Part shown: piece after piece, positions 385-25,656 of the stretch | Position numbering within the stretch: position 1 is the first letter of the stretch | How the letters are laid out: the number at the start of each line of letters is the position of its first letter | Assembly: GCA_000299095.1 (NCBI GenBank) | Contig: CP003809.1 | Span: forward strand, 930,001 to 994,000 | Direction: 5' to 3' | DNA: 64,000 bases | Source of the DNA: an alpha proteobacterium HIMB5 | Lineage (GTDB): Bacteria > Pseudomonadota > Alphaproteobacteria > Pelagibacterales > Pelagibacteraceae | The notes under the pieces: generated by a model | Database searches by the model: none | Told to the model about the DNA's origin: nothing | Seen by the model: only the letters and a program-made list of their open reading frames with translations | Translations under genes and position numbers: made by a program

Positions 385-1629
385 TTAACTGAATCTAGAT
401 GAACTATATGGGTTTAAATTTAAATTAGTATTTTCTTCAGCAATCATACCTGAAACTATCTTTCCAGATATTGGTCCTAATGTCCATCCTAAATGATGAT
501 GTCCAAAACAGTAAAAAACATTTTTATATTTTTTAGATGGACCCATTACAGGTAAAAAATCAGGTAATGTTGGTCTAAATCCCAACCATTCATCTTCATG
601 ATCAGGTAAGTCTCCAAACATATATTTTGCGTTATTAATTAAATTTTTTATTCTTGATTTTGAAAGAGGATTGTCTAAACCACCAAATTCTACTGTTCCA
701 ACAACTCTCAATCCTTGTTCCATAGGAGTAACACCAAAACCTCTATTCTGAAAAATTACTGGACGACTTAATAAATGATCACAATTTTTAAAATGAACGT
801 GATATCCTCTTTCTGTGTCTAGTGGAATTTTTTCACCTAAGTTATCTGTAAGCTTTTTAGAAAATGCTCCACACGCTATAACGGCCTTATCAAATACAAA
901 ACGTTGTGCCTCGGTTATAAAAGTAGGTTTGTCCCCATCAAATTCTATATCCTTGATATTCAACTTATTAAATTTTCCTCCTTTTTTCATAAAAAGATCA
1001 AAAAACTTTAATAAAATTTTTTTTGGATTTCTTGCATGTCTTGCATAAGGATAAAAAACTCCAGCATGATAAAATGGTCTTATATGAGGTTCCAAATCAT
1101 GTATCTCATGTTTGTTAACTAGTTGCTGTTCTACTCCTAATTTTTCTCTGACTTTTATTTCAAGTTCTCTACTTTTTAAATCTTTATCATTCCAAATATA
1201 AAGAATGCCCTTGTTTTCAACTAATCCCTCTAGATCATCAATCTCATCAAAAATTTCATCATATGCAGGTAAAGCTAAATCTAAAATTTGATGCATATTT
1301 TTAGCTGTATGCATCATTTTATTTTTTGATGTATTTAATAAAAATTTTACAAACCAAGGAATCATTTTTGGAACATAATTCCATTTAAGCGCTAATGGTC
1401 CACTAGAACTCATAAGCATTGCAGGCACATCTAAAAGAATATCAGTTCTGTTTAAAGATAGAGATGCGTATGGAGAAAAATGACCTGCATTACCATATGA
1501 AGCAGCAGGACTACCAGGTTCATCTCTGTCAAAAATAGTTACATCAAAACCTTTCTTTTGAAGAAACAGTGCATTTGATACACCTTGGATACCTGATCCT
1601 ATAATACCTACTTTATGAGATTTAGTCAT
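385..1629 (-). CDS. FAD-dependent D-amino-acid dehydrogenase-like oxidoreductase (DadA/DAO family)
   Basis: The 414-residue protein belongs to the DAO family of FAD-dependent amine or amino-acid oxidoreductases, which oxidise D-amino acids or N-substituted glycines to imino or keto products. The N-terminal Rossmann motif GIIGSGIQG with the acidic end of strand 2 (FDRD) covers residues 8-36. The C-terminal FAD-contacting stretch with FGHHHLGWTLGP lies near residue 377. The length and the GNAGH motif near residue 47 fit DadA-type enzymes. The exact substrate is uncertain, because SAR11 genomes carry several paralogues such as sarcosine and dimethylglycine oxidases. It lies 59 bases downstream of rodA and directly precedes a DMT permease, which may move its substrate or product (inference). 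Confidence 0.8.
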   Translation of the reverse strand: MTKSHKVGIIGSGIQGVSNALFLQKKGFDVTIFDRDEPGSPAASYGNAGHFSPYASLSLNRTDILLDVPAMLMSSSGPLALKWNYVPKMIPWFVKFLLNTSKNKMMHTAKNMHQILDLALPAYDEIFDEIDDLEGLVENKGILYIWNDKDLKSRELEIKVREKLGVEQQLVNKHEIHDLEPHIRPFYHAGVFYPYARHARNPKKILLKFFDLFMKKGGKFNKLNIKDIEFDGDKPTFITEAQRFVFDKAVIACGAFSKKLTDNLGEKIPLDTERGYHVHFKNCDHLLSRPVIFQNRGFGVTPMEQGLRVVGTVEFGGLDNPLSKSRIKNLINNAKYMFGDLPDHEDEWLGFRPTLPDFLPVMGPSKKYKNVFYCFGHHHLGWTLGPISGKIVSGMIAEENTNLNLNPYSSSRFS

Positions 1630-1659
1630 AAAAAAATATACTATTAATGATCAATTTTT

Positions 1660-1688
1660 TTTAAGCGACAAATTATACTGTGCTTAAA
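1660..1688 (-). promoter_or_regulatory. Possible -10 promoter element and inverted repeat before the DadA-like gene
   Basis: On the minus strand the rodA-dadA gap holds a perfect TATAAT (plus-strand positions 1672-1677). It is flanked by the 7-base inverted repeat TTTAAGC/GCTTAAA (1660-1666 and 1682-1688). I see no good -35 at the right distance, and the repeat is not followed by a T-run, so it is not an intrinsic terminator. It may be a promoter that lets the DadA-like and DMT genes be expressed apart from the mre-mrd-rodA operon. Confidence 0.35.
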
Positions 1689-2807
1689 TTATGATATATT
1701 TTGATTGTGATTAATCTTCGCACTTAGAACTATTGAAAAACCAATCATAGTAGCGAGCAAGGAAGAGCCACCATAGGACATTATTGGCAAAGGTGAACCA
1801 ACTATAGGTAGTAATCCTAAAACCATAGACATATTAATTGAAACATATAAAAAAATTGCAAATGCAAAACCGAAACAAAAAAGTCTTGAAAAGAAACTTC
1901 TTGAAATCAAACCAGTTCTAATAATTCGATATATTATCAAACCATACAGCAGTAATAAAAGCATAGATCCCAAAAATCCAAATTCTTCAGAAAATAATGT
2001 GAATATAAAGTCAGTATGTTTTTCAGGTAAAAAATCTAAATAACTTTGAGTTCCTTTTAAAAAACCTTTTCCGGTCAAACCGCCAGACCCTACCGCAATT
2101 TTTGACTGGATAATTTGGTAACCTGATCCCAAAGGATCTCTATCAGGATCAATAAATGTTAAAATTCTTAATTTTTGATATGGTTTTAAAAATGAAATAG
2201 CAAATGGAAGTGAAATTAGAAATAATATAAACGAATAAACAAAATATTTAATCCTCAAACCTGATAACCATAAAATAATTAGACCAGATAATGAGATTAA
2301 AATTGAGGTACCAAGATCAGGTTGTGTAATAACTAAAATTGTTGGAACAATTATAATTGTTAATGAAACTAAAATCGTAGAAAAATGATTTATCCTTTCC
2401 GTTCTAATTCTGTGAAAATATTTAGCTAAACAAAGTATTACTGCAATTTTCATTAACTCCGATGGTTGAAGATTTAAAAAGTATAAATTTATCCATCTTT
2501 TTGAGCCCGAAGCTTGAACACCATACAAAGCAACCCAAATCAACAAACCAAGTATTATTACATAAAAGAAATAACTTCCCGCATGCCAAAACTTGATATT
2601 AACAAACGATAATATCAACATCATTGGGAAAAAAATTGAAAATTTAACAAAATGACTTTTTGTGTGAAATAAAATTTCTCCACCGTCTGTAGAGTACATT
2701 GCAAATATACTAATTACTCCAAGAATTAAAATACTCATTAATAAGACGTAATCATAATCTCTTAACTTTTGAAAAATTGATGTATTTTGAGAAAAATTAT
2801 TTTTCAT
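1689..2807 (-). CDS. rodA: Peptidoglycan glycosyltransferase RodA (SEDS family)
   Basis: RodA is the SEDS-family glycan polymerase of the elongasome; it works with PBP2 in the inner membrane to make lateral-wall peptidoglycan. The 372-residue protein has about ten membrane segments. Family landmarks are the GSKRWINL and LQPSELMKIA stretch (around residues 106-123), DLGTSILI (near 164) and the C-terminal PIVGSPLPIMSYGGSS (near 335-350). Length is normal for RodA. It follows mrdA with a two-base gap and is the last gene of the mreB-mreC-mreD-mrdA-rodA series. Placement next to mrdA and mreBCD, not ftsI and murein division genes, separates it from the paralogue FtsW. Confidence 0.95.
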   Translation of the reverse strand: MKNNFSQNTSIFQKLRDYDYVLLMSILILGVISIFAMYSTDGGEILFHTKSHFVKFSIFFPMMLILSFVNIKFWHAGSYFFYVIILGLLIWVALYGVQASGSKRWINLYFLNLQPSELMKIAVILCLAKYFHRIRTERINHFSTILVSLTIIIVPTILVITQPDLGTSILISLSGLIILWLSGLRIKYFVYSFILFLISLPFAISFLKPYQKLRILTFIDPDRDPLGSGYQIIQSKIAVGSGGLTGKGFLKGTQSYLDFLPEKHTDFIFTLFSEEFGFLGSMLLLLLYGLIIYRIIRTGLISRSFFSRLFCFGFAFAIFLYVSINMSMVLGLLPIVGSPLPIMSYGGSSLLATMIGFSIVLSAKINHNQNIS

Positions 2808-2809
2808 TT

Positions 2810-4675
2810 TTAAATATCTAAAAATTTATTATCTTTTGCTTCCTCTCTTAATTTGTGTCTATCGATTATTAATTTAAATAACTTTTTAGCCATTGGTGCA
2901 GCAGTTGTTCCGCCTGATCCACCATGTTCAATTATAATACTCAAAGCGTAACGAGGATTTTCAGTAGGTCCATATGCAACATATAATGCATGATCTCTTT
3001 GTTCATAAGGAATTTCTGATGTTTTTAAATCAAGTTCTCTTTCCTCTGCTGTAATCCTTTTAACTTGAGCAGTTCCAGTTTTGCCTGCAAAACGATATTT
3101 CGGATCATTTATTCTAGATGAATAAGAAGTTCCCATAACCTCGTTTGTTGAACTAAAGATTGAGTCTTGAATAATTTTAATATTTTTCTTTTCTGTAAAT
3201 AATGGTTCATACTTGTCTAAAAAATTTGTTTCAGTATCAACGGTGATCTTTGGATAAATTTTATATCCACCATTGGCAATTTGAGCTGTCATCAAACAAA
3301 GTTGTATTGGAGTTGTTTGAATATATCCTTGTCCAATTCCAGTAATCATTGTTTCTCCTAACAACCATCCGCTCCCTAGTGCTTTTTTTTTCCATTGAGT
3401 ATTAGGAACAAGACCTTTTTTTTCATTGAAAAATAAGTTTTCAAAAACTCTTTCACCAAGGCCAAATTTTTTGGCTGTTTCACTTAATCTATCAACTCCA
3501 AGTCTTCTTGCTATCTCATAAAAATATGTATCACAAGATTGTTTCATCGCATTTTTTAAACTTACAAATCCATGCCCTTTTTTCTTCCAGCAGTGGTATG
3601 TTTGACCATACATTTCAGTTTTACCCTCACACTTTACTGTAAACTGAGGACTGACAATTTTATTTTCTAAAGCAGATAAAGCGACAATTGGTTTAATAGT
3701 AGAACCAGGAGAGTATTTACCACTGATGGTTTTATTTACTAAAGGTTTTAATGGATTGTTTCTAATTAATTGCCAATCATCTTGATTAATACCAAATAAA
3801 AATAAATTTGGATCGAAAGATGGTGCTGATTGCATAGCAATAATCTCACCTGTATAAATATCCATTACACAAATAGAACCAGCTCTATCTTTAAGTAATT
3901 CACCACAATATTTTTGTATTTCAGTATCTATGGTTAATCTTATATTTTTACCTTTTGATCCTTTTTGTAATTCAATCTGATTTATCTTCTTACCATAAGC
4001 ATTTACTTCAAATCTTTGAATATCATTTTCTCCAAGCAATTCTTTTTCAAATGCTTTTTCTAGTCCAGTTTTTCCAACTCTTAATCCAGGAACAAATTTC
4101 TTTTTAATGTCTTCATTTTCTAAAACATCTTTTTCATTAGCTTGGCTAACGTATCCAAGTACATGGGTAAAATCCTCTTTATGAGGGTAAATTCTCGTTA
4201 TTGATAAAACTGATTTTACACCAGTTAGTTCATATAAGTAACTATTTACCCTTGAAAATTGTTCCCACGTTAAATTATCAGATACCACTATAGTATCCCA
4301 TGGCTTAACTTCATTTTTTTTCTTTAATAATCTTTGAAATTGTCTTTCCGACATATTTAAAATATTTTTCAATCTTAAAGAAACATATCTAAAGTTTTCA
4401 ACTTGTTCTGGTATTAAATGAAGTTGATATACTTCATTGTTTCCAGCTATTGTTTTTCCAAAATAATCTAAAAATTCACCTCTTATAGGCGGGAGTTTAG
4501 ACTCTCTAATTCTATTTTTATCTGATAAAGTAAGGTATTTATTTTTATCTTTAACTTGTAATGAATAAAGTCTAGTTGAAAGACCTAAAAAAACTAAAAT
4601 CTTTGCAGCTGTAACAATAAATAATCTCCTATTAATTAAGTTAACTTTTGTTACATTATCGCTGATATTAAACAT
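2810..4675 (-). CDS. mrdA: Penicillin-binding protein 2 (elongasome transpeptidase)
   Basis: This is the monofunctional class B transpeptidase that cross-links new peptidoglycan during elongation. It has one N-terminal membrane anchor (about residues 17-37), a PBP dimerisation domain (about 60-230) and a transpeptidase domain. The catalytic motifs are intact: SPGSTIKP with nucleophile Ser325 and Lys328, SCD at 380-382 and KTGT at 532-535. The length of 621 residues is normal for PBP2. Its start overlaps the end of mreD by 8 bases, and rodA follows after two bases, so expression is probably coupled. Confidence 0.95.
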   Translation of the reverse strand: MFNISDNVTKVNLINRRLFIVTAAKILVFLGLSTRLYSLQVKDKNKYLTLSDKNRIRESKLPPIRGEFLDYFGKTIAGNNEVYQLHLIPEQVENFRYVSLRLKNILNMSERQFQRLLKKKNEVKPWDTIVVSDNLTWEQFSRVNSYLYELTGVKSVLSITRIYPHKEDFTHVLGYVSQANEKDVLENEDIKKKFVPGLRVGKTGLEKAFEKELLGENDIQRFEVNAYGKKINQIELQKGSKGKNIRLTIDTEIQKYCGELLKDRAGSICVMDIYTGEIIAMQSAPSFDPNLFLFGINQDDWQLIRNNPLKPLVNKTISGKYSPGSTIKPIVALSALENKIVSPQFTVKCEGKTEMYGQTYHCWKKKGHGFVSLKNAMKQSCDTYFYEIARRLGVDRLSETAKKFGLGERVFENLFFNEKKGLVPNTQWKKKALGSGWLLGETMITGIGQGYIQTTPIQLCLMTAQIANGGYKIYPKITVDTETNFLDKYEPLFTEKKNIKIIQDSIFSSTNEVMGTSYSSRINDPKYRFAGKTGTAQVKRITAEERELDLKTSEIPYEQRDHALYVAYGPTENPRYALSIIIEHGGSGGTTAAPMAKKLFKLIIDRHKLREEAKDNKFLDI

Positions 4676-7485: not shown

Positions 7486-9057
7486 TTAAATTCCTTTCAC
7501 CTTGTTTTCTTCCTGATCCATAGGAGCAGTTTTTTCTCTTTTAATAATCATTTTATTCAATGCACTTATATAAGCGTTTGCTGAAGCGACTAACGTATCA
7601 GTATCTGCAGCTTGTCCAACAGTAGTTTTTCCATTTTCCTCAATACGAACACTTACTGTCGCTTGTGCATCAGTACCTTCTGTAACTGCATGCACTTGAT
7701 ATAATTGTAAGTTAACATCATGAGGGTATAAATTTTTGATACACTTAAATATAGCATCAACTGGTCCATCACCAGCTTCTGTCGCAGATTTTACTTCTCC
7801 GTTCACATCTAAAGTCATATCTGCTTTTTGTGGTTCTCCAGTTCCGGCAAATACTTTTAAGGATTTCAATGAGATTGTATTTGATTTATTATCAATAATT
7901 AAACTATCATCGACTAAAGCAATTATATCCTCGTCGTATATATGTTTTTTCTTGTCAGCTAAAATTTTAAATTTTCCAAAAGCATTTTCAATTATATCAT
8001 CAGTTATATCTGCATAGCCTAGACTTACTAGTTTGTCTTTAAATGCGTGTCTTCCAGAGTGCTTACCCATTACTAATGATGTTTGTTTTACTCCAACACT
8101 TTCAGGCGTCATAATTTCATAAGTATTTCTATTTTTTAACATTCCATCTTGATGAATACCTGACTCATGAGCGAAAGCATTTTTTCCAACTATTGCTTTA
8201 TTATATTGAACTGGAAAACCAGTAACATTTGAAACAAGTTTTGAAGCTTTACTTAACAAAGTTGTGTTTATTCCAGTTTCATATGGCATTAAATCATTAC
8301 GTGTTCTGATAGCCATTACAACTTCTTCTAATGCTGCATTTCCTGCTCTTTCACCAATTCCATTAATTGTACATTCAATTTGTCTTGCACCTGCCTGAAC
8401 TCCTGCTAATGAATTTGCTACTGCTAAACCTAAATCATTATGACAATGTGTTGATAAAATTGCTTTATCAATATTTGGAACCTTATTTAATAATGTATTT
8501 ATAATTTTAGTAAATTCTGAGGGGACTGTATAACCGACAGTATCAGGAATATTAATTGTTGTAGCACCATTTGCAATAGCAAGCTCCACAGTTTTGCACA
8601 TATAATCCATATCTGTTCTTGTTCCATCCTCACAAGACCACTCAACATCGTCAGTTAAATTTCGAGCATATGAAACATGTTCTTTTATAGATTCATATAC
8701 TTGTTCTGGAGTTTTATTTAATTTGTGTTTCATATGAAGCGGACTTGTTGATATGAAAGTATGAATTCTAAATCTTGGGGCATGTTTTAGAGCTTCGTAA
8801 CATCTATCAATATCTTTTTTTGAATGTCTTGATAAACCACAAGGAATTGATTTTTTTAAAACTTTGCTAATTGCAGTTACTGCCTCAAAATCACCAGGAG
8901 ACGCAATTGGAAAACCAGCTTCAATTATATCAATACCCAATTCATCAAATACTCTTGCGATTTGAATCTTTTCTTCAAGACTCATTGAGGCCCCTGGAGA
9001 TTGTTCTCCATCACGCATAGTTGTATCAAAAATAATTACTCTTTCTTTGTTTTTCAT
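7486..9057 (-). CDS. leuA: 2-isopropylmalate synthase
   Basis: LeuA condenses acetyl-CoA with 2-oxoisovalerate, the first committed step of leucine synthesis. The 523-residue protein has the DRE-TIM metallolyase motif DTTMRDGEQSPG near residue 11, the metal-binding HCHNDLG near 203, and NGIGERAGNAALEE near 233. A C-terminal LeuA regulatory domain (about 390-505) binds leucine for feedback inhibition in the family. It lies downstream of ilvBNC, whose pathway supplies its substrate, but is separated from ilvC by a four-gene cassette and a 259-base gap. Its stop codon abuts the mreB start. Confidence 0.96.
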   Translation of the reverse strand: MKNKERVIIFDTTMRDGEQSPGASMSLEEKIQIARVFDELGIDIIEAGFPIASPGDFEAVTAISKVLKKSIPCGLSRHSKKDIDRCYEALKHAPRFRIHTFISTSPLHMKHKLNKTPEQVYESIKEHVSYARNLTDDVEWSCEDGTRTDMDYMCKTVELAIANGATTINIPDTVGYTVPSEFTKIINTLLNKVPNIDKAILSTHCHNDLGLAVANSLAGVQAGARQIECTINGIGERAGNAALEEVVMAIRTRNDLMPYETGINTTLLSKASKLVSNVTGFPVQYNKAIVGKNAFAHESGIHQDGMLKNRNTYEIMTPESVGVKQTSLVMGKHSGRHAFKDKLVSLGYADITDDIIENAFGKFKILADKKKHIYDEDIIALVDDSLIIDNKSNTISLKSLKVFAGTGEPQKADMTLDVNGEVKSATEAGDGPVDAIFKCIKNLYPHDVNLQLYQVHAVTEGTDAQATVSVRIEENGKTTVGQAADTDTLVASANAYISALNKMIIKREKTAPMDQEENKVKGI

Positions 9058-9085
9058 GTTTAAAAATTAAAAAGAAAATTTACAA

Positions 9086-9108
9086 TACAATCTATAATAG
9101 AGATTGTA
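9086..9108 (-). promoter_or_regulatory. Inverted repeat in the leuA upstream region
   Basis: A perfect 8-base inverted repeat, TACAATCT and AGATTGTA with a 7-base spacer, lies 29 bases upstream of the leuA start. It is not followed by a T-run in the leuA direction, so it is not a standard terminator. It could be an operator or a small hairpin in the leader. The rest of the 9058-9316 gap is AT-rich, with no convincing riboswitch or leucine-rich leader peptide. Confidence 0.35.
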
Positions 9109-9316
9109 AATTATTATGTTAAATCAAGGTAATATTTCTACCATTTGTCGCAATCAATAAAAATATTTTTACTCATCATAGTAATTTTATTCTTAATTTG
9201 TTTCTATCTTGTTTAGTATAATGATTAGTTATTAATTTTCTTATTATTTTATAATTTTGAATCATTTTTAAAGTTGCTGTAACAGTGCTAAATACACTAG
9301 ATAATCTAAATTTTTT

Positions 9317-9985
9317 TTAATTACTCAAATATTCTGGTCGATTTATTAATGAATTTACATATTTTGAATTTTTTGAAAGTCTTAGAGAAATTTCTTTAAT
9401 ATTTTCTCTAACAAACTGATCAAAATCAATTGGATACTTAAATTCTAAAATACTTTTTGATGGATAATTTTTGATTTGATTAAATTCAGAATAATTTTTT
9501 AAAAATATACTTTTCAAATTATAATCAATAGTTGCTCTAATTTTTGAATTATTTGAAATTAGATACTCTCTTGTATAATGAGTAGTTGATACAGGGTTCA
9601 GCACATAATCAAGATTCAAAATTTCTTTTACTTGATCAGTTATTTTTTTTAAATTTATAAAATTTAAATATTTATGGTTATTCATTTTTGAAAATTCAAA
9701 AGTTTTTTTATTACATTCAAAACCTTTTTTAGATTTAATTTCTAAAACAGGGTCTGAAATCAACATTTTATTCCCATACCATCTTAGGCGTATTTTTGTT
9801 TTATTATTTATCCCATCAATATTTTCTCTTGCCATTTTTAAATTTGTATTATCAAAATAAATCGAGTTTACTTGTCTTTTAGAAAACTGAAAATGAAAAA
9901 AAAATTTAGATCTAATTAAAATATTTATAAGATTAAGATAATTCTTATTATAAATCCATTTTCTTTCAAATCTTTTGATTATCAT
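9317..9985 (-). CDS. VTC-domain (polyphosphate polymerase-like) protein
   Basis: The 222-residue protein matches the VTC domain, the catalytic domain of yeast Vtc4 that makes polyphosphate from ATP inside a tunnel lined with basic residues. Visible family features are FERKW at residues 6-10, VNSIYFDN (about 41-48), the R-x-R strand KIRLRW, VLEIKSKKG with the Glu-x-Lys pair, KIRATIDYNL, and SILEFKYPID with the late Glu and Lys. The residues expected for phosphate and metal binding therefore seem present. There is no signal peptide or membrane segment, so it should be cytosolic. It is the last gene of the DUF4956-CotH-PPase-VTC cassette, 25 bases after the pyrophosphatase. The domain call is firm; polyphosphate synthesis here is inference. 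Confidence 0.82.
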   Translation of the reverse strand: MIIKRFERKWIYNKNYLNLINILIRSKFFFHFQFSKRQVNSIYFDNTNLKMARENIDGINNKTKIRLRWYGNKMLISDPVLEIKSKKGFECNKKTFEFSKMNNHKYLNFINLKKITDQVKEILNLDYVLNPVSTTHYTREYLISNNSKIRATIDYNLKSIFLKNYSEFNQIKNYPSKSILEFKYPIDFDQFVRENIKEISLRLSKNSKYVNSLINRPEYLSN

Positions 9986-10010
9986 TTTTGTGTTACTTTA
10001 TTTATAAAGT

Positions 10011-10619
10011 TTAATGTTTTTTTTTACCTGTATAATTTTTTATTTCTAAATAAGTTCCTTTATAATTTTTAAACCAAATTTCAATAATTTCTAAAATTCC
10101 TGGATAATTTTTTTTTATATTATTCAGTGAATTTACATTCAAAAAATTTGAGTTTTTTGGAATTGCGACTACTTTGTGATCAGTAAAACCATCATCTATT
10201 ATTTCAATCATACCTAAAATCTGTACTTTGATAATCTTGCCTCTTGGTATGGATGGTCCAAGTACCAAAATATCTAATGCATCACCATCACCATTTATTT
10301 CTAATCCCAATTTTGTTTTAGGTATAAAGCCATAATTAAAAGGATAGGAAAGATATTTTATTTGTCTAGGTTTTGAATTTGTAATCTCATGTTCAATATA
10401 TTCTCCAGTATCAGACACTTCCCATTTATCATTAGTCCCAGTTGGTATTTCTATAACTGCATTGACGCTTCCATCTAAGTTTATGGGTTCATAATCATAC
10501 AAAAAATTTTTTTTACCTTTAATGATAAATTCTTTTTTTCCATCAATTAAATTATCTGCAAAAGAAATTGAAAAAAAAGGAAATATAAAAAACAAATAAA
10601 ATAAATAATATTTTTTCAT
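10011..10619 (-). CDS. Secreted family I inorganic pyrophosphatase
   Basis: This is a soluble-type family I pyrophosphatase (pyrophosphate to two phosphates) with an N-terminal signal peptide. By comparison with E. coli PPase the catalytic set looks complete: Glu in VIEIP, Lys and Glu in DKWEV, Arg in KPRQ, the two Tyr of YPFNYG, the three Asp of DGDALD, Asp in IDDG and TDHK, and Tyr-Lys in NYKG. The hydrophobic leader MKKYYLFYLFFIFPFF points to the periplasm, unlike the usual cytosolic enzyme. I chose the ATG at 10619, which follows the CotH-like stop after one base and starts at MKKYY; an in-frame ATG at 10634 would overlap that gene by 14 bases. It sits between the CotH-like and VTC genes. 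Confidence 0.85.
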   Translation of the reverse strand: MKKYYLFYLFFIFPFFSISFADNLIDGKKEFIIKGKKNFLYDYEPINLDGSVNAVIEIPTGTNDKWEVSDTGEYIEHEITNSKPRQIKYLSYPFNYGFIPKTKLGLEINGDGDALDILVLGPSIPRGKIIKVQILGMIEIIDDGFTDHKVVAIPKNSNFLNVNSLNNIKKNYPGILEIIEIWFKNYKGTYLEIKNYTGKKKH

Positions 10620-10620
10620 T

Positions 10621-13227
10621 CTATAAATTTTCAACTAAACTTAAATTTTTTCTATATATTAGATCAAGTATATTGTTAAATCTGCTGTCTGTAATTTTAT
10701 TATTATAGAAAATTCTAGAGTTTTCATCAGTAATCCATTTGTAAATAAAATTTTTAACTTCAATATTTTCAACTTTTATTTTGGCTTCTTTGTATTCATT
10801 TTTCTTTTGATAAGCAGCAAAAGGAAATTTTACTTCTAATAATTTTATATTTTTTGCATTTATATGAGAACCATCTTTACTAACGATACCTACAAAAGAG
10901 TTTACAGCACTTACATTTTCAATATCTAAATGTGATTGCTCTCCCACACTTATCAATTTATCACCTACATTTTTGAAATTTACATTTAGAACTGCAGCCT
11001 TTGATCCAGAAAAATCAATAGCATCATTTCCAATATCTAAAAAATTTAAATTATTAAAATTACCTTTGCTAAAATCAATATCAATAGCATCTGACGAAAC
11101 TTCAGAAATTCTCATATTTTCAATAATAAAATTTGACGAGAAAACATTTATTGCATCTTCAGAAGATATTTTTTTTAAAGTAACATCTTTGAAATAAACA
11201 CTTCCATTATTTATGTTAATTGCTCCCATAATATTATGGGTATTCAAAAAATCTGAATTTTTTGTATTTTTTGATATTTCCTCTTTAGTAAATGAACCAT
11301 TTTTTTTTAGGTATTTTGTTGAAGTTGAGTAAAAATTACCATTTTTAGATGAAAATTTTCCTTTGTAACCATTTAGATATAATATTTCTACATTGTTGAA
11401 AATATTTTGCTGAATTGTATCAGTAATTAATAAACCGCCACCAAAATTATTTTTTAATCCTGTTATTATTATCTTTTCATTTTTACCATCAAGGTGCCAA
11501 GGAGAATTAGAAAATATAAATGCATTATTTGTTAATATAATCTTTTCCCCACTATGTATTTTAATTAAATAATTGTCAGGTATATAAAAGCTTTCACTTA
11601 TAAATGTTATTTTATCCTTCAATCTTAATATATTTTGATTTTTATCAAAATACTTTAAATATTCAGTATTTTTTTTAAAGTTGTAATTATCATTTTTATT
11701 TGAATTTAAAAGATCCACATCTAAAAAAAAGGGGTATTTTTTTTTTTCATTATAAAAAATTAGACCATTACAATTTTTTTTTTTTGGATTTAGATAATCG
11801 AAATTAATTTTGTTATTTGAAAAATTTGATAATTGTTGATCAACTTCTATTTCTGTATCTCCACAAACTATTTTTTTGATGTTTGTTATTGAGTATGAAT
11901 TGTTAAAATCTTTGATCAAAAAATTTTGATTTTGTGAATCTTCTAAAACCTGTAATTTGGGAGACAAATTTAACTTTTTTTTGATATTGTTTTTTCTATA
12001 AATAAAATCATCTTTTGAAAAGTAATATAATCCCATACCACTAGCTTGATTGTGGTAGCTAAACTGATCTGCATAAATTAAGGAATTAATTTTATTTATT
12101 TGTCTACTCGTCCGTGATAAAAATTTTTCTATAAAATTATCCGAGCTAATTAATTCTAATTTTTTTACGTATTTTTTATAAAAATTTTGATCTAGTTTAT
12201 CTCCATTAAAAAAAAATTTTTTTAACCATTTAATTTCTTTTGCTAAAACATTATTTAAATCTGTTTCACTATTTAATAAATAATCAACAATTAAATTATT
12301 ATCGTATAATGAATTAAATTTATAAAAATTCGGTAAAAATTTATGTCCATCAAATGGTATCGGTTCAAACAAACCGTTAATGGGATTATAATAAAATTTT
12401 ACACTTTTAAGTTGAGCTCCATGTAATGTACCTGTTAAATCTACTATAGCAAAATAGGAGGCCCATTTTTCCAAGTCAAAAATATCTTTTGCTTCAATCT
12501 TATTATTAAAAAAATCGTCTAATTTTTTTGTTGCTCCAAACAATATTTCTTTATTTTCATCTCTATTCCAAAACTTTTTATTATAAACTTCAAAAATTGG
12601 ATCAATACTATCTGTGCTAAAATCTTCATCTAAACCAAAAATTGGACCATTTCTTCTTCCATTTCTCTCAACAAGTTCCTTGCCAAAACCCTCCTCTATC
12701 ACAAATAAGCCTCTTTTTTCTCCATTAATTGATAAATTTAAAAATTTGTACTGTAATTTTATTAAGTTAAAATCAGTAGATAATTCGTGAAAAATCCATT
12801 CATGAACATAATTTCTTACTTTTGGTTTTTGAATTGAAAACTTATTCATTCTAAATAAATAATTTTCGTTCTGTAGTTCAGTTTTAAATGAGACTTTATT
12901 CTTATCGTAATAATGAATAATTCTATCTCCTTTTAACCTAATCTTTCCGTTAAAACTTTTATCTTTATAATCAAATTCTACTTCAAAGCTTGGAAAAGTA
13001 TTTTTACTTGGAATGCCTTTTTTAACAACTTCTTTTCTAAACTTTTCAATTTTGATAAGATCTTCAAATCTTATATTTATATTAAGATCTTCAACATTGT
13101 AAAAATAACTTTTTAAAGAAGAAAGAAAAATTTTAGGTAAATAAACCCATTCAATTCTTCCAGATCTTGATAATTTATCTAATGCTTCATTTGTATATTT
13201 TTGGAAAGTAACTGAAGACACAATCAT
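10621..13227 (-). CDS. CotH-kinase-family protein with C-terminal beta-helix, probably membrane-anchored
   Basis: The 868-residue frame holds a CotH-like domain in its first half and a repetitive, right-handed beta-helix-like second half (about residues 540-830, short repeats with many Asn, Asp and Gly). CotH landmarks are NGEKRGLFVIEEGFGKEL (near 167-185) and FYYNPINGLFEPIPFDG (near 278-294). The latter resembles the LEPIxFD form I associate with CotH proteins found beside VTC and DUF4956 genes. CotH proteins are atypical kinases; activity here is unproven. The ATG at 13227 is probably not the true start. The same frame stays open to about 13314 and encodes a membrane helix, which an ATG at 13339 would reach only across a one-base frame break in a 12-base poly-A tract. 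The inferred full protein is about 904 residues. Confidence 0.75.
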   Translation of the reverse strand: MIVSSVTFQKYTNEALDKLSRSGRIEWVYLPKIFLSSLKSYFYNVEDLNINIRFEDLIKIEKFRKEVVKKGIPSKNTFPSFEVEFDYKDKSFNGKIRLKGDRIIHYYDKNKVSFKTELQNENYLFRMNKFSIQKPKVRNYVHEWIFHELSTDFNLIKLQYKFLNLSINGEKRGLFVIEEGFGKELVERNGRRNGPIFGLDEDFSTDSIDPIFEVYNKKFWNRDENKEILFGATKKLDDFFNNKIEAKDIFDLEKWASYFAIVDLTGTLHGAQLKSVKFYYNPINGLFEPIPFDGHKFLPNFYKFNSLYDNNLIVDYLLNSETDLNNVLAKEIKWLKKFFFNGDKLDQNFYKKYVKKLELISSDNFIEKFLSRTSRQINKINSLIYADQFSYHNQASGMGLYYFSKDDFIYRKNNIKKKLNLSPKLQVLEDSQNQNFLIKDFNNSYSITNIKKIVCGDTEIEVDQQLSNFSNNKINFDYLNPKKKNCNGLIFYNEKKKYPFFLDVDLLNSNKNDNYNFKKNTEYLKYFDKNQNILRLKDKITFISESFYIPDNYLIKIHSGEKIILTNNAFIFSNSPWHLDGKNEKIIITGLKNNFGGGLLITDTIQQNIFNNVEILYLNGYKGKFSSKNGNFYSTSTKYLKKNGSFTKEEISKNTKNSDFLNTHNIMGAININNGSVYFKDVTLKKISSEDAINVFSSNFIIENMRISEVSSDAIDIDFSKGNFNNLNFLDIGNDAIDFSGSKAAVLNVNFKNVGDKLISVGEQSHLDIENVSAVNSFVGIVSKDGSHINAKNIKLLEVKFPFAAYQKKNEYKEAKIKVENIEVKNFIYKWITDENSRIFYNNKITDSRFNNILDLIYRKNLSLVENL

Positions 13228-13304
13228 CAGAAAACCAAGAGAAAAAACTGAAAATGTTACAAAAAAATAAGCAAGAAGCAGGTTTTTAAGGTTAAAAATT
13301 TTTC

Positions 13305-13316
13305 TTTTTTTTTTTT
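13305..13316. repeat. 12-base poly-T (poly-A in the gene sense) tract at the 5' end of the CotH-like gene
   Basis: An uninterrupted run of 12 T on the plus strand lies between the ATG at 13339, which overlaps the DUF4956 stop as ATGA, and the open CotH frame. The two reading frames differ by one base and would fuse if the tract had 11 or 14 bases. A run of this length is prone to RNA-polymerase slippage, replication slippage and sequencing error. Confidence 0.9.
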
Positions 13317-13335
13317 ATTTTCTCTTGTTTAATAA

Positions 13336-14046
13336 TCATAGTGAAAGTTCATCATTATATGAAAGTATCACTCTAGAATTTTTATATTTTTCTTTAATTA
13401 TCCCACTTAACTTTGTTAATTCTTCAAATTTAGTTGGTTTAACATCAAAATTGATTGACGTATTTTCATCAGATCTGGACATTGATATGAATTTTAATTC
13501 ATTGGATATTTTTTTTAAATCATTTAGGATATTATTTATATCTGTATCAGATATATTTTTATCAATAATTATACCTATTGCTATTTGTTTGTTTAAATTA
13601 TCTTTGAAATTTTTATGAAATTTTGAGTAAATTGTTATTATAATTAAAGAAAATGATATACCAATCGTAGTTATTAAAATTTGATTTGCTCCACTGCCTA
13701 AGCCTATGGCTATTATCAAAAATAAATAAACTAATTCTTCAGGCTCTTTAATTGCAGCTCTAAATCTTACTATCGATAGAGCCCCAACTAAACCTAAAGA
13801 TAAAGCTAAAGAACTTTTTACAATCATGATTACTATGCAAGTAGTTACACCTAAAATAACAAAATTTTTTGAAAATTCTCTTTTATCAGAAAGTGTTGAT
13901 GAATTTTTTAAATAAAATATTTGTACCAAAAAACTTAAAACAGCAGCACATATCAAAGAAACTAAAAAGCTATATATTCCAATATCAATATTTTGATTGA
14001 TAAAAAAGTCTAAATCACCTTTATTTAAATTTTGTAAATTATCCAT
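13336..14046 (-). CDS. DUF4956 family membrane protein
   Basis: The 236-residue protein carries the DUF4956 signature ALSIVRFRAAIKEPEELVYL (around residues 89-108). About four membrane helices lie in the first 145 residues, followed by a soluble C-terminal domain of about 90 residues. The molecular function of the family is not known. From general knowledge of annotated genomes it often lies beside VTC-domain and CotH-family genes, as here. The ATG at 14046 directly follows the ilvC stop with no gap, so it is likely read on the ilv transcript. Its stop overlaps an ATG (ATGA at 13336-13339) that is probably the true start of the CotH-like gene. Confidence 0.85.
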   Translation of the reverse strand: MDNLQNLNKGDLDFFINQNIDIGIYSFLVSLICAAVLSFLVQIFYLKNSSTLSDKREFSKNFVILGVTTCIVIMIVKSSLALSLGLVGALSIVRFRAAIKEPEELVYLFLIIAIGLGSGANQILITTIGISFSLIIITIYSKFHKNFKDNLNKQIAIGIIIDKNISDTDINNILNDLKKISNELKFISMSRSDENTSINFDVKPTKFEELTKLSGIIKEKYKNSRVILSYNDELSL

Positions 14047-15081
<1,035 letters not shown>

Positions 15082-23832: not shown

Positions 23833-25656
23833 TTATTTTCTAGAGTAGATTTTATAATTTTCAGTTGAATAAATTTGAGTATATATATTGTTTAAAATCA
23901 CAAAATCATCAGAAATTTTTGAAAAATTTATAATTAAATAATCAGGAATTAAATCTTTTTGAATTTTGTGATTAATATACAAGTCAATTAATCTTCTCTT
24001 TTCATTTTCTGGTATTATTTGATTTTGAGCTCTCAATGGGGACAAATTTTTAATTTGATTTATAACATCATCAGAATAAAAATCTAACTCTGAGAAAGTA
24101 TGTAGTGAATTAGCTTGATATCTATAAATAAATAATCTCATAAAAAAAGAATTTCTATTTTCAGACTTACCTAATTGAATAAAATCTTTGAAATTATGCT
24201 CTGAGAAACCTAAATATTTTAAGCAATTAATTAATGTATATTCTATCTTAGAGTTTGGTAGAGAATTTGTAAAACCATCACTAATCAAAATATTTTTATT
24301 TTTATTTAATAACCAAATATTTTCTGCAATTCTATCATTCGTGAAAAGTTTAAGTTTAGTCTTTTCAATTTTATTTTTTTGTAAGAATTTTTCAACTTTT
24401 ATACTTTCGTTTATTACATCTTTCTTTTGAAAGATTATATTTTTTTCATAAACTACTCTACATGATAAAATAATTAAAATTAAAAGAAATGATACAGACT
24501 TATGAAAGATTAATTTAAAAAATTTCTTTTTGTCAATAAAATCATACAAAAAAATTAAAGAACAGATTAATATATAAAAAGTTATATTATAAACCATTAT
24601 ATCAGCATAATGATAAATTGAAATTACACTTTTAGATAATAAAATAAAAATTAGGGGTGCTACTATTGAAGCAAGGATAAAGAAAAAGAAAAAATTAATT
24701 TTTTTGTTTTTTTCATTATTGTTCATAATAAAAAATAAAATGACCGATATTACAATCAAAAAGAAAAAACTAGTATTAGAAAATTTATTTAAGAAATATT
24801 TAATTAAGAATAATTTCTGACTATAATCTAAATTAATCAAACCTAATCTAATTGCATAGTCTGGCTCCATAGATATTTGTTGTAAAATAAAAGGAGAAAT
24901 AAAAATTATGAATATAAATACAAATAAAATAAATCTTTTAAATAAAATTAAAAAATCTAAATCTTTATTTAAATTTCTAATAAAACTAACAAATATTAAT
25001 AATGAAAATATAGTAAAGTAATAAAAAAATGTATTTAATAAAAGTCCTAATAAAATAGAGATTTTAACAATGTATATTTTATCAAAATTTTTATTTAATT
25101 GCTTTTTGAAGTCAATCAAATAATAAATCATCATGAATATCAACACTCCAGAAATTAAAGGTCTGGGAAATCTAGTTCCTAGATTACTTTCAAATAAATT
25201 AAATAGATTTTTAAGAGGTATGTATTGCTGAAAGTTATATGAAATACTCAAAAAAGAATAAACTAGAAACAAAAATATTACTAAATTAAAAGATTTTTTT
25301 TTTACCCTAAATATTTTTGTAAAAAGTTTATAGATAACAAATAAAAACGTTATTTGAAAAATATATTCAAGAAAAATAAACGAATAAATCCCAATAAATT
25401 TAAAAAATAAAGCATGTAATGCCATTCCTAAAAGAGGGAAGCCTATGATTTTATCTGGTTTTATAGTTTCTAAATAACTTGGTGAAATATTAAATTCTGA
25501 AAGTGAATAGATGATAGGGAAGTATTGTGTATCTTGTAAATTATACAGAGCAAGAATATTTAAGTTAAAACCAAATTCGGTTAGTGTAATGATCCATTTT
25601 ATTGATAAACTAAAGACTGCTAATAAAATTAAATAATAATTATTTAAATCTTTCAT
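23833..25656 (-). CDS. Unrecognised large membrane protein, possibly GT-C-like
   Basis: I do not recognise a family. The 607-residue product has roughly eleven membrane helices in its first 400 residues, with very Phe-, Ile-, Leu- and Lys-rich composition, followed by a soluble C-terminal part of about 190 residues. This overall plan, and an acidic residue soon after the first helix, recall GT-C membrane glycosyltransferases of the PMT/ArnT kind. No diagnostic motif is visible, so that is a guess. It stands alone between thyX and the tmRNA gene and is strongly AT-biased, like many variable SAR11 genes. Its ATG at 25656 fits the start of the first hydrophobic helix. Confidence 0.6.
   Translation of the reverse strand: MKDLNNYYLILLAVFSLSIKWIITLTEFGFNLNILALYNLQDTQYFPIIYSLSEFNISPSYLETIKPDKIIGFPLLGMALHALFFKFIGIYSFIFLEYIFQITFLFVIYKLFTKIFRVKKKSFNLVIFLFLVYSFLSISYNFQQYIPLKNLFNLFESNLGTRFPRPLISGVLIFMMIYYLIDFKKQLNKNFDKIYIVKISILLGLLLNTFFYYFTIFSLLIFVSFIRNLNKDLDFLILFKRFILFVFIFIIFISPFILQQISMEPDYAIRLGLINLDYSQKLFLIKYFLNKFSNTSFFFLIVISVILFFIMNNNEKNKKINFFFFFILASIVAPLIFILLSKSVISIYHYADIMVYNITFYILICSLIFLYDFIDKKKFFKLIFHKSVSFLLILIILSCRVVYEKNIIFQKKDVINESIKVEKFLQKNKIEKTKLKLFTNDRIAENIWLLNKNKNILISDGFTNSLPNSKIEYTLINCLKYLGFSEHNFKDFIQLGKSENRNSFFMRLFIYRYQANSLHTFSELDFYSDDVINQIKNLSPLRAQNQIIPENEKRRLIDLYINHKIQKDLIPDYLIINFSKISDDFVILNNIYTQIYSTENYKIYSRK

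Follow-up and report, generated by a model that had tools for sequence, protein, structure and literature searches.

A DUF4956–VTC–CotH gene triad outside Pel loci in SAR11 bacteria, with an optional exported pyrophosphatase

Three gene families that recur side by side in bacteria have been described from Pel loci. Gram-positive Pel clusters carry cotH-PPP-DUF4956(-DUF4832) as accessory genes (PMC7112168). In S. intermedius the same three families are encoded by SIR_1592-1594, for which deletion phenotypes have been described (PMC12345266). Loss of the DUF4956 gene raises Pel, loss of the CotH gene lowers it, and both alter aggregation; deletion of the VTC gene has no reported effect on aggregation (PMC12345266). 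The same 2025 study reported the three-gene synteny as not found outside Pel loci. In B. subtilis, the D228Q substitution inactivates CotH (PMC7821199). The original prediction for the locus described here held that the joint role of these genes was not described; the triad has in fact been published with deletion phenotypes (PMC7112168, PMC12345266). Our literature search found no enzyme assay for any bacterial triad member.

The locus lies in a SAR11 genome (G000; complete, a single contig of 1,343,202 bases, 1.34 Mb), within a 64-kb window, the whole stretch of DNA that was analysed. On the minus strand, the gene order is ilvB-ilvH-ilvC, DUF4956, cotH, PPase (pyrophosphatase), VTC, and then leuA. 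All four open reading frames of the predicted cassette are present at 9317-14046, between ilvC (14047..15069) and leuA (7486..9057). No base separates the TAG stop of ilvC from the ATG of DUF4956, as had been claimed, and the cassette stands directly behind the ilv genes, in keeping with its predicted placement under the branched-chain operon. From DUF4956 through cotH and the PPase to VTC, successive genes overlap or are separated by short gaps, and 259 nt separate VTC from leuA. DUF4956, CotH, and VTC are thus contiguous apart from the PPase placed between the latter two. The GC content of the cassette is 0.20-0.25, versus 0.30-0.35 for the ilv and leuA genes, and other genes of the window are equally AT-rich. 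Elsewhere in the window, an open reading frame at 23833-25656 encodes 607 aa at 19.5% GC and has no Pfam match at 1e-5.

The core unit of the cassette is a triad of DUF4956, a CotH with a beta-helix, and VTC, which are obligately linked and co-diverging. Among 297 genomes of the SAR11 order, VTC is found in 36 and DUF4956 in 41, with both in 33 (P ~1e-32), so that the triad occurs in ~12-14% of the set. In all three VTC-only genomes, and in seven of the eight DUF4956-only genomes, the locus runs into a contig end; the eighth of the latter (G262) holds a fragment of it. One genome (G199) carries shortened VTC and DUF4956 genes and no CotH. In whole loci the three genes are always neighbours, almost always in the order DUF4956, CotH, VTC, and their distance matrices correlate at r=0.81-0.89, a value reached by 0/2000 permutations. 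The triad genes are therefore linked rather than scattered across SAR11 neighbourhoods, and the triad is mobile among SAR11 strains. Its contexts are many, often among epimerases, glycosyltransferases, nucleotidyltransferases, and UDP-sugar dehydrogenases, and surface-glycan synthesis genes surround most copies. Across the phylum VTC is sparse, with matches in 8/249 genomes. A DUF4956-VTC fusion suspected in one locus (L113) was rejected as a frame-broken or misread open reading frame. A viral origin was likewise rejected: DUF4956 has no relative in IMG/VR, and phage records give weak partial PPase matches only. In one SAR11 sub-lineage, a conserved membrane-anchored protein of ~340 aa, with no Pfam match, is encoded between DUF4956 and CotH (L021:12513-13541, L022:12546-13595, L023:12674-13522, L024:5322-6344).

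The ilvC-leuA junction takes exchangeable cargo and is found empty, with the triad cassette, or with an ABC transporter (window 9058-14046; L181, L182, L183). Relatives that lack the cassette have ilvC and leuA next to each other, ~90 nt apart, an adjacency that supports the original prediction. The triad occupies the junction in three genomes (G000, G024, G141) and in two single-cell genomes (L060, L063); in L061, DUF4956-CotH follows ilvC and runs to the contig end, and in G313, VTC adjoins leuA at a contig end. Three other genomes (G183, G297, G308) have at this junction a four-gene ABC transporter with its binding protein, judged from sequence to be of the peptide type. Upstream of leuA, at 9080..9110 on the minus strand, a promoter-like element holds the palindrome CAATCT-N7-AGATTG between TTTACA and TATTGT. 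The palindrome is kept in relatives with and without insertions, so in all junction cases the cargo lies between ilvC and the apparent leuA promoter, and leuA appears to keep its own promoter downstream of the insertion. The palindrome is a candidate operator of a leucine regulator.

Profile searches confirm three of the predicted identities: VTC (PF09359, E=1.5e-22), the PPase (PF00719, E=8.6e-29), and DUF4956 (PF16316, E=5.7e-16). An NCBIfam search gave no match at all for CotH or DUF4956, and its VTC match to an isoprenyl transferase (0.016) was discarded as far under the cut-off. The VTC-domain protein (222 aa, 9317..9985, minus strand) is of the polyphosphate polymerase type within the TTM fold, with a PF09359 score of 80.8 bits against a cut-off of 23. 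Its family profile matches yeast Vtc4 (3G3Q) at 9.4e-16, and the 20 columns invariant in 36 sequences align with the Vtc4 core. In the alignment to 3G3Q the tunnel motifs of Vtc4 are kept (K; SIYFD; RLRWY; E.K; Y.R; R.T.D; E.K; SK). Neither a transmembrane (TM) segment nor a signal peptide was found in the window protein. PPK1 and PPK2 were not found in G000, which makes VTC its only recognised candidate polyphosphate polymerase.

DUF4956 is a membrane protein of 236 aa (13336..14046, minus strand) with predicted TM helices at residues 24-48, 55-76, 79-96, 102-119, and 123-151. These are followed by a C-terminal ACT/ferredoxin-like domain (155-230, beta-alpha-beta-beta-alpha-beta) in the AF2 model (pLDDT 85). 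A conserved motif, GALSIVRFRxxIKEPEEL, lies between TM3 and TM4, and 22 columns are invariant in 46 sequences. In a homologue from Chloroflexi (L081), TM1 is preceded by a secreted domain and a signal peptide. With five helices, this would place the N-terminus outside and both the invariant RFR..K loop and the ACT-like domain on the cytosolic side. The predicted N-out/C-in topology is also backed by the basic loops. A Foldseek search with the model returned partial ACT/ferredoxin-like matches only, none at E<=0.001. Alignment of DUF4956 with MgtC by hhalign gave a weak match, with a score of 34.2 over 198 columns against a maximum of 17.4 for shuffled controls and a probability of 41%; the window proteins had no match to PF02308 (MgtC/SapB) at E<=0.1. 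The S. intermedius homologue is annotated in line with this weak resemblance.

The second gene encodes a protein of 868 aa as called (10621..13227, minus strand), in which a CotH fold is joined to a right-handed beta-helix. The predicted CotH identity fails with PF08757 on the window protein alone, which 9/35 family members do match, and holds with the family profile and the structure. Searched against all PDB sequences, the 35-member profile matches B. cereus CotH alone (5JD9/5JDA, E=5.8e-19), and the AF2 model (pLDDT 81.7) has 5JD9 as its best Foldseek match (E=3.6e-12, TM 0.71 on target). The kinase-like part spans residues ~76-420 and the beta-helix ~521-810. The frame as called, from the ATG at 13227, misses a membrane anchor. 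The likely true 5' end is at 13228..13339, where an upstream start (ATGA, 13339-13336) overlaps the DUF4956 stop and an N-terminal TM segment is encoded, one base out of frame across a run of A12 (13305-13316). A run of A11 would keep the frame. All relatives checked have cotH in frame and starting with a TM segment, and several have A-runs there, of varying length. A sequencing error, phase variation, or transcriptional slippage are possible sources of the frame break.

The catalytic site was anchored by the 23-residue spacing of D228 and D251, which in 5JD9 reads NFDGFVHN...WDYD. At that site the SAR11 proteins read HGxxxxNxKFYYNPxxxxFEPIxxDG. Histidine stands at the position of the catalytic Asp (D228 of B. 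subtilis CotH) in 31/35 SAR11 homologues and Asp in 0/35, while the metal Asp (D251) is kept in 31/35; the window protein has His269 and Asp293 at these positions. Canonical CotH adjoins DUF4956-VTC in Chloroflexi and Bacteroidota, and the copy in L099 has the catalytic Asp. The beta-helix type therefore seems a distinct form that is probably not a kinase, and it should not be annotated as one; phosphorylation of surface proteins by CotH of the window type, as originally suggested, is doubtful. Conservation is strongest in the beta-helix, where 20/150 columns of beta-helix II are conserved at >=85%, versus 10/300 in the kinase-like part. Residues 22 apart stack into a face of Asp, Asn, and Lys (D691-D713-D735-K757 and N694-D716-D738-S760). 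The Foldseek neighbours of the beta-helix are alginate lyase and other polysaccharide lyases, epimerases, polygalacturonases, and phage tailspikes.

The fourth gene encodes a family I PPase of 202 aa (10011..10619, minus strand). The called start is a TTG at 10634, and the ATG at 10619, which gives a signal peptide, is probably the true start, with cleavage probably after SFA. SAR11 copies open with a signal-peptide-like segment, and every copy aligned conserves the active-site residues and the ligands for metal and PPi. A family I PPase occurs in only five of the 297 genomes, in every case beside the triad or fused to it; the chance of all five falling in VTC genomes is P=2e-5. The gene stands between CotH and VTC in the window, before DUF4956 in G176 and G201, and after VTC in G197. 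In G220 it is fused to the CotH C-terminus on a short 3.3-kb contig (L052), where a CotH–beta-helix–PPase fusion of 901 aa (629-3334) is 5' truncated by the contig end and directly followed by VTC. Carriers are interspersed with non-carriers on the triad tree, so the gene was gained or lost more than once. The PPase is thus an optional but triad-specific fourth gene in SAR11, and of the prediction that four genes move together, three do so obligately and the PPase in 5/36 VTC-bearing genomes.

A housekeeping role for this PPase was considered and rejected. SAR11 relies on a membrane H+-PPase, found in 11/12 genomes tested, which covers cytosolic PPi, and the family I gene is found only at the triad. 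Together with the export signals, this points to a PPase that most likely works outside the cytosol for the triad module. Outside SAR11, triad-adjacent PPases are encoded by a Flavobacteriales MAG (L092), a Bacteroidetes MAG (L094), and Pareuzebyella (L124); that of Dokdonia (L109) lies three genes away. All four have a lipoprotein-like N-terminal hydrophobic stretch ending in Cys, and those of L094 and L109 alone fit the strict lipobox pattern. In other phyla calcineurin-like metallophosphoesterases adjoin the triad (L064:9692-10831, L124:14018-14908, L132:13002-14006), possibly as an alternative to the PPase.

The triad is not confined to SAR11. A DUF4956 profile scan of 84,980 species genomes gave at least 588 matches, and the best 80 of these include Bacteroidota, Chloroflexota, Planctomycetota, Verrucomicrobiota, Marinamargulisbacteria, Myxococcota, and others, with VTC and CotH mostly adjacent among those 80. 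PelG (PF16933) was not found in 24 triad-bearing SAR11 genomes, including G000. The SAR11 evidence is by itself enough to contradict the published confinement of the synteny to Pel loci (PMC12345266). The triad appears to be a self-standing module of many phyla rather than an appendage of Pel, the absence of PelG having been seen in SAR11. Three Bacteroidota loci (L072, L075, L085) combine DUF4956-VTC with canonical CotH, an O-antigen ligase-like protein (Wzy_C, shown for L072), and a second, beta-helix CotH, and are possibly a polysaccharide assembly line.

The reading we favour, while tentative, is a Pel-independent module forming inner-membrane-spanning polyphosphate machinery that serves surface glycans, to which the PPase is added. 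Cytosolic VTC would convert ATP to polyphosphate. DUF4956, with its MgtC-like five helices, would hold VTC at the inner membrane and pass on or control the chain, its ACT-like domain and conserved basic loop (RFR..K) facing the cytosol. CotH, anchored by its N-terminal TM helix, would act on the outer side, where the beta-helix face may bind or modify a surface glycan together with the phosphate chain, instead of working with ATP as ordinary protein kinases do. Residual periplasmic PPi or short polyphosphate would be degraded by the exported PPase, which elsewhere may be replaced or joined by metallophosphoesterases. Linkage, domains, residue conservation and loss, and export signals are read from sequence, and fold and topology are predicted; from these we infer polyphosphate synthesis here, its export, the glycan substrate, and the PPase substrate. 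Passage of polyphosphate through DUF4956 is only an analogy to the eukaryotic VTC complex. The originally proposed envelope system tied to phosphate polymers finds support as a reading of this kind. Counting against this reading are the S. intermedius VTC deletion, for which no effect on aggregation is reported, the absence of the PPase from most triads, and the lack of glycan genes beside the ilvC-leuA copy.

Part of this evidence also suits a regulatory system, in which DUF4956 is a membrane sensor or regulator, the product of VTC is a small polyphosphate or nucleotide signal in the cytosol, and the beta-helix CotH is a surface protein, so that polysaccharide output is tuned and nothing is exported. 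The ACT-like domain is consistent with such a role, as is the full-length resemblance to MgtC, weak but above the shuffled null. The S. intermedius mutants, with opposite effects of the DUF4956 and CotH deletions on Pel, altered aggregation, and no reported aggregation defect for VTC, make this a serious rival. It is nevertheless rather unlikely, since the exported PPase linked or fused to the triad points to phosphate chemistry outside the cytosol, and the beta-helix keeps an enzyme-like charged face. VTC could instead be a triphosphatase or have another TTM activity, as the TTM superfamily has mixed activities and the literature search found no assay of a bacterial triad VTC; the conserved motifs align with Vtc4 across the whole domain and make this very unlikely.

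Exported polyphosphate might also serve CotH as a phosphoryl donor for surface proteins or glycans, with the PPase removing the end PPi. Such an enzyme would account for a kinase fold on the ATP-free side of the membrane and for its linkage to a polyphosphate polymerase; the metal Asp is kept, and canonical CotH stands beside DUF4956-VTC in Chloroflexi, with the catalytic Asp, and in Bacteroidota. The idea is quite unlikely, given the His at the Asp228 position of most SAR11 homologues, none of which has Asp there, and the inactivity of D228Q in B. subtilis (PMC7821199). Least probable is a phosphate economy of polyphosphate storage and external pyrophosphate scavenging in phosphate-poor water. 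A polymerase-type VTC with an exported PPase would suit it, but the PPase is missing from ~86% of VTC genomes, CotH and the glycan neighbours are left unexplained, and the cassette sits behind ilv genes, with none of the triad's neighbours identified as a phosphate gene. The originally suggested role in phosphate-poor water is accordingly not supported, most copies lying in a surface-glycan synthesis context.

The favoured polyphosphate machinery has a bolder form, in itself quite improbable: VTC would thread polyphosphate through the MgtC-like DUF4956 into the periplasm, the Asp-less CotH, with its stacked Asp/Lys beta-helix face, would draw on it to attach phosphate to a surface glycan, and the PPase would pull the reaction forward. 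If true, covalent chemistry would be powered outside the membrane without ATP, in a system found in many phyla and exchanged between SAR11 strains. What gives the locus its interest is that an ocean bacterium with a streamlined genome retains these four genes as a cassette and exchanges them. The exported PPase, in SAR11 found only with the triad and once fused to CotH, is a clue absent from the Pel work, and the beta-helix face and DUF4956 hold the residues of interest for function.

Among known systems, the VTC protein shares the TTM/VTC catalytic domain and aligned core motifs with the eukaryotic VTC complex (Vtc4, 3G3Q, 5IIQ, 8I6V); unlike it, the bacterial protein has neither SPX nor a DUF202-type TM domain, and its membrane partner is DUF4956. 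DUF4956 may resemble MgtC/SapB (PF02308) in its five predicted TM helices and ACT-like C-terminal domain, with a GFLGAG-like motif aligned with GLVGAL, but lacks a PF02308 match and gives a weak profile-profile match; the S. intermedius homologue is described as an MgtC-type TM domain with an intracellular ACT domain. The CotH shares the spore-coat kinase fold (5JD9/5JDA) over ~320 residues and the metal Asp, and differs in having His for the catalytic Asp, a one-residue loop insertion, a fused beta-helix, and export in non-spore-formers. The PPase has the complete active-site set of family I (PF00719), but it is exported or lipoprotein-like, an optional partner of the triad, and once fused to CotH. 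The whole resembles the Gram-positive Pel accessory triad, with the same three families contiguous and a CotH that is secreted there and likewise predicted to lie outside here. What sets SAR11 apart from the Pel triad is a CotH with an added beta-helix and no catalytic Asp, an optional exported PPase, and a setting without PelG.
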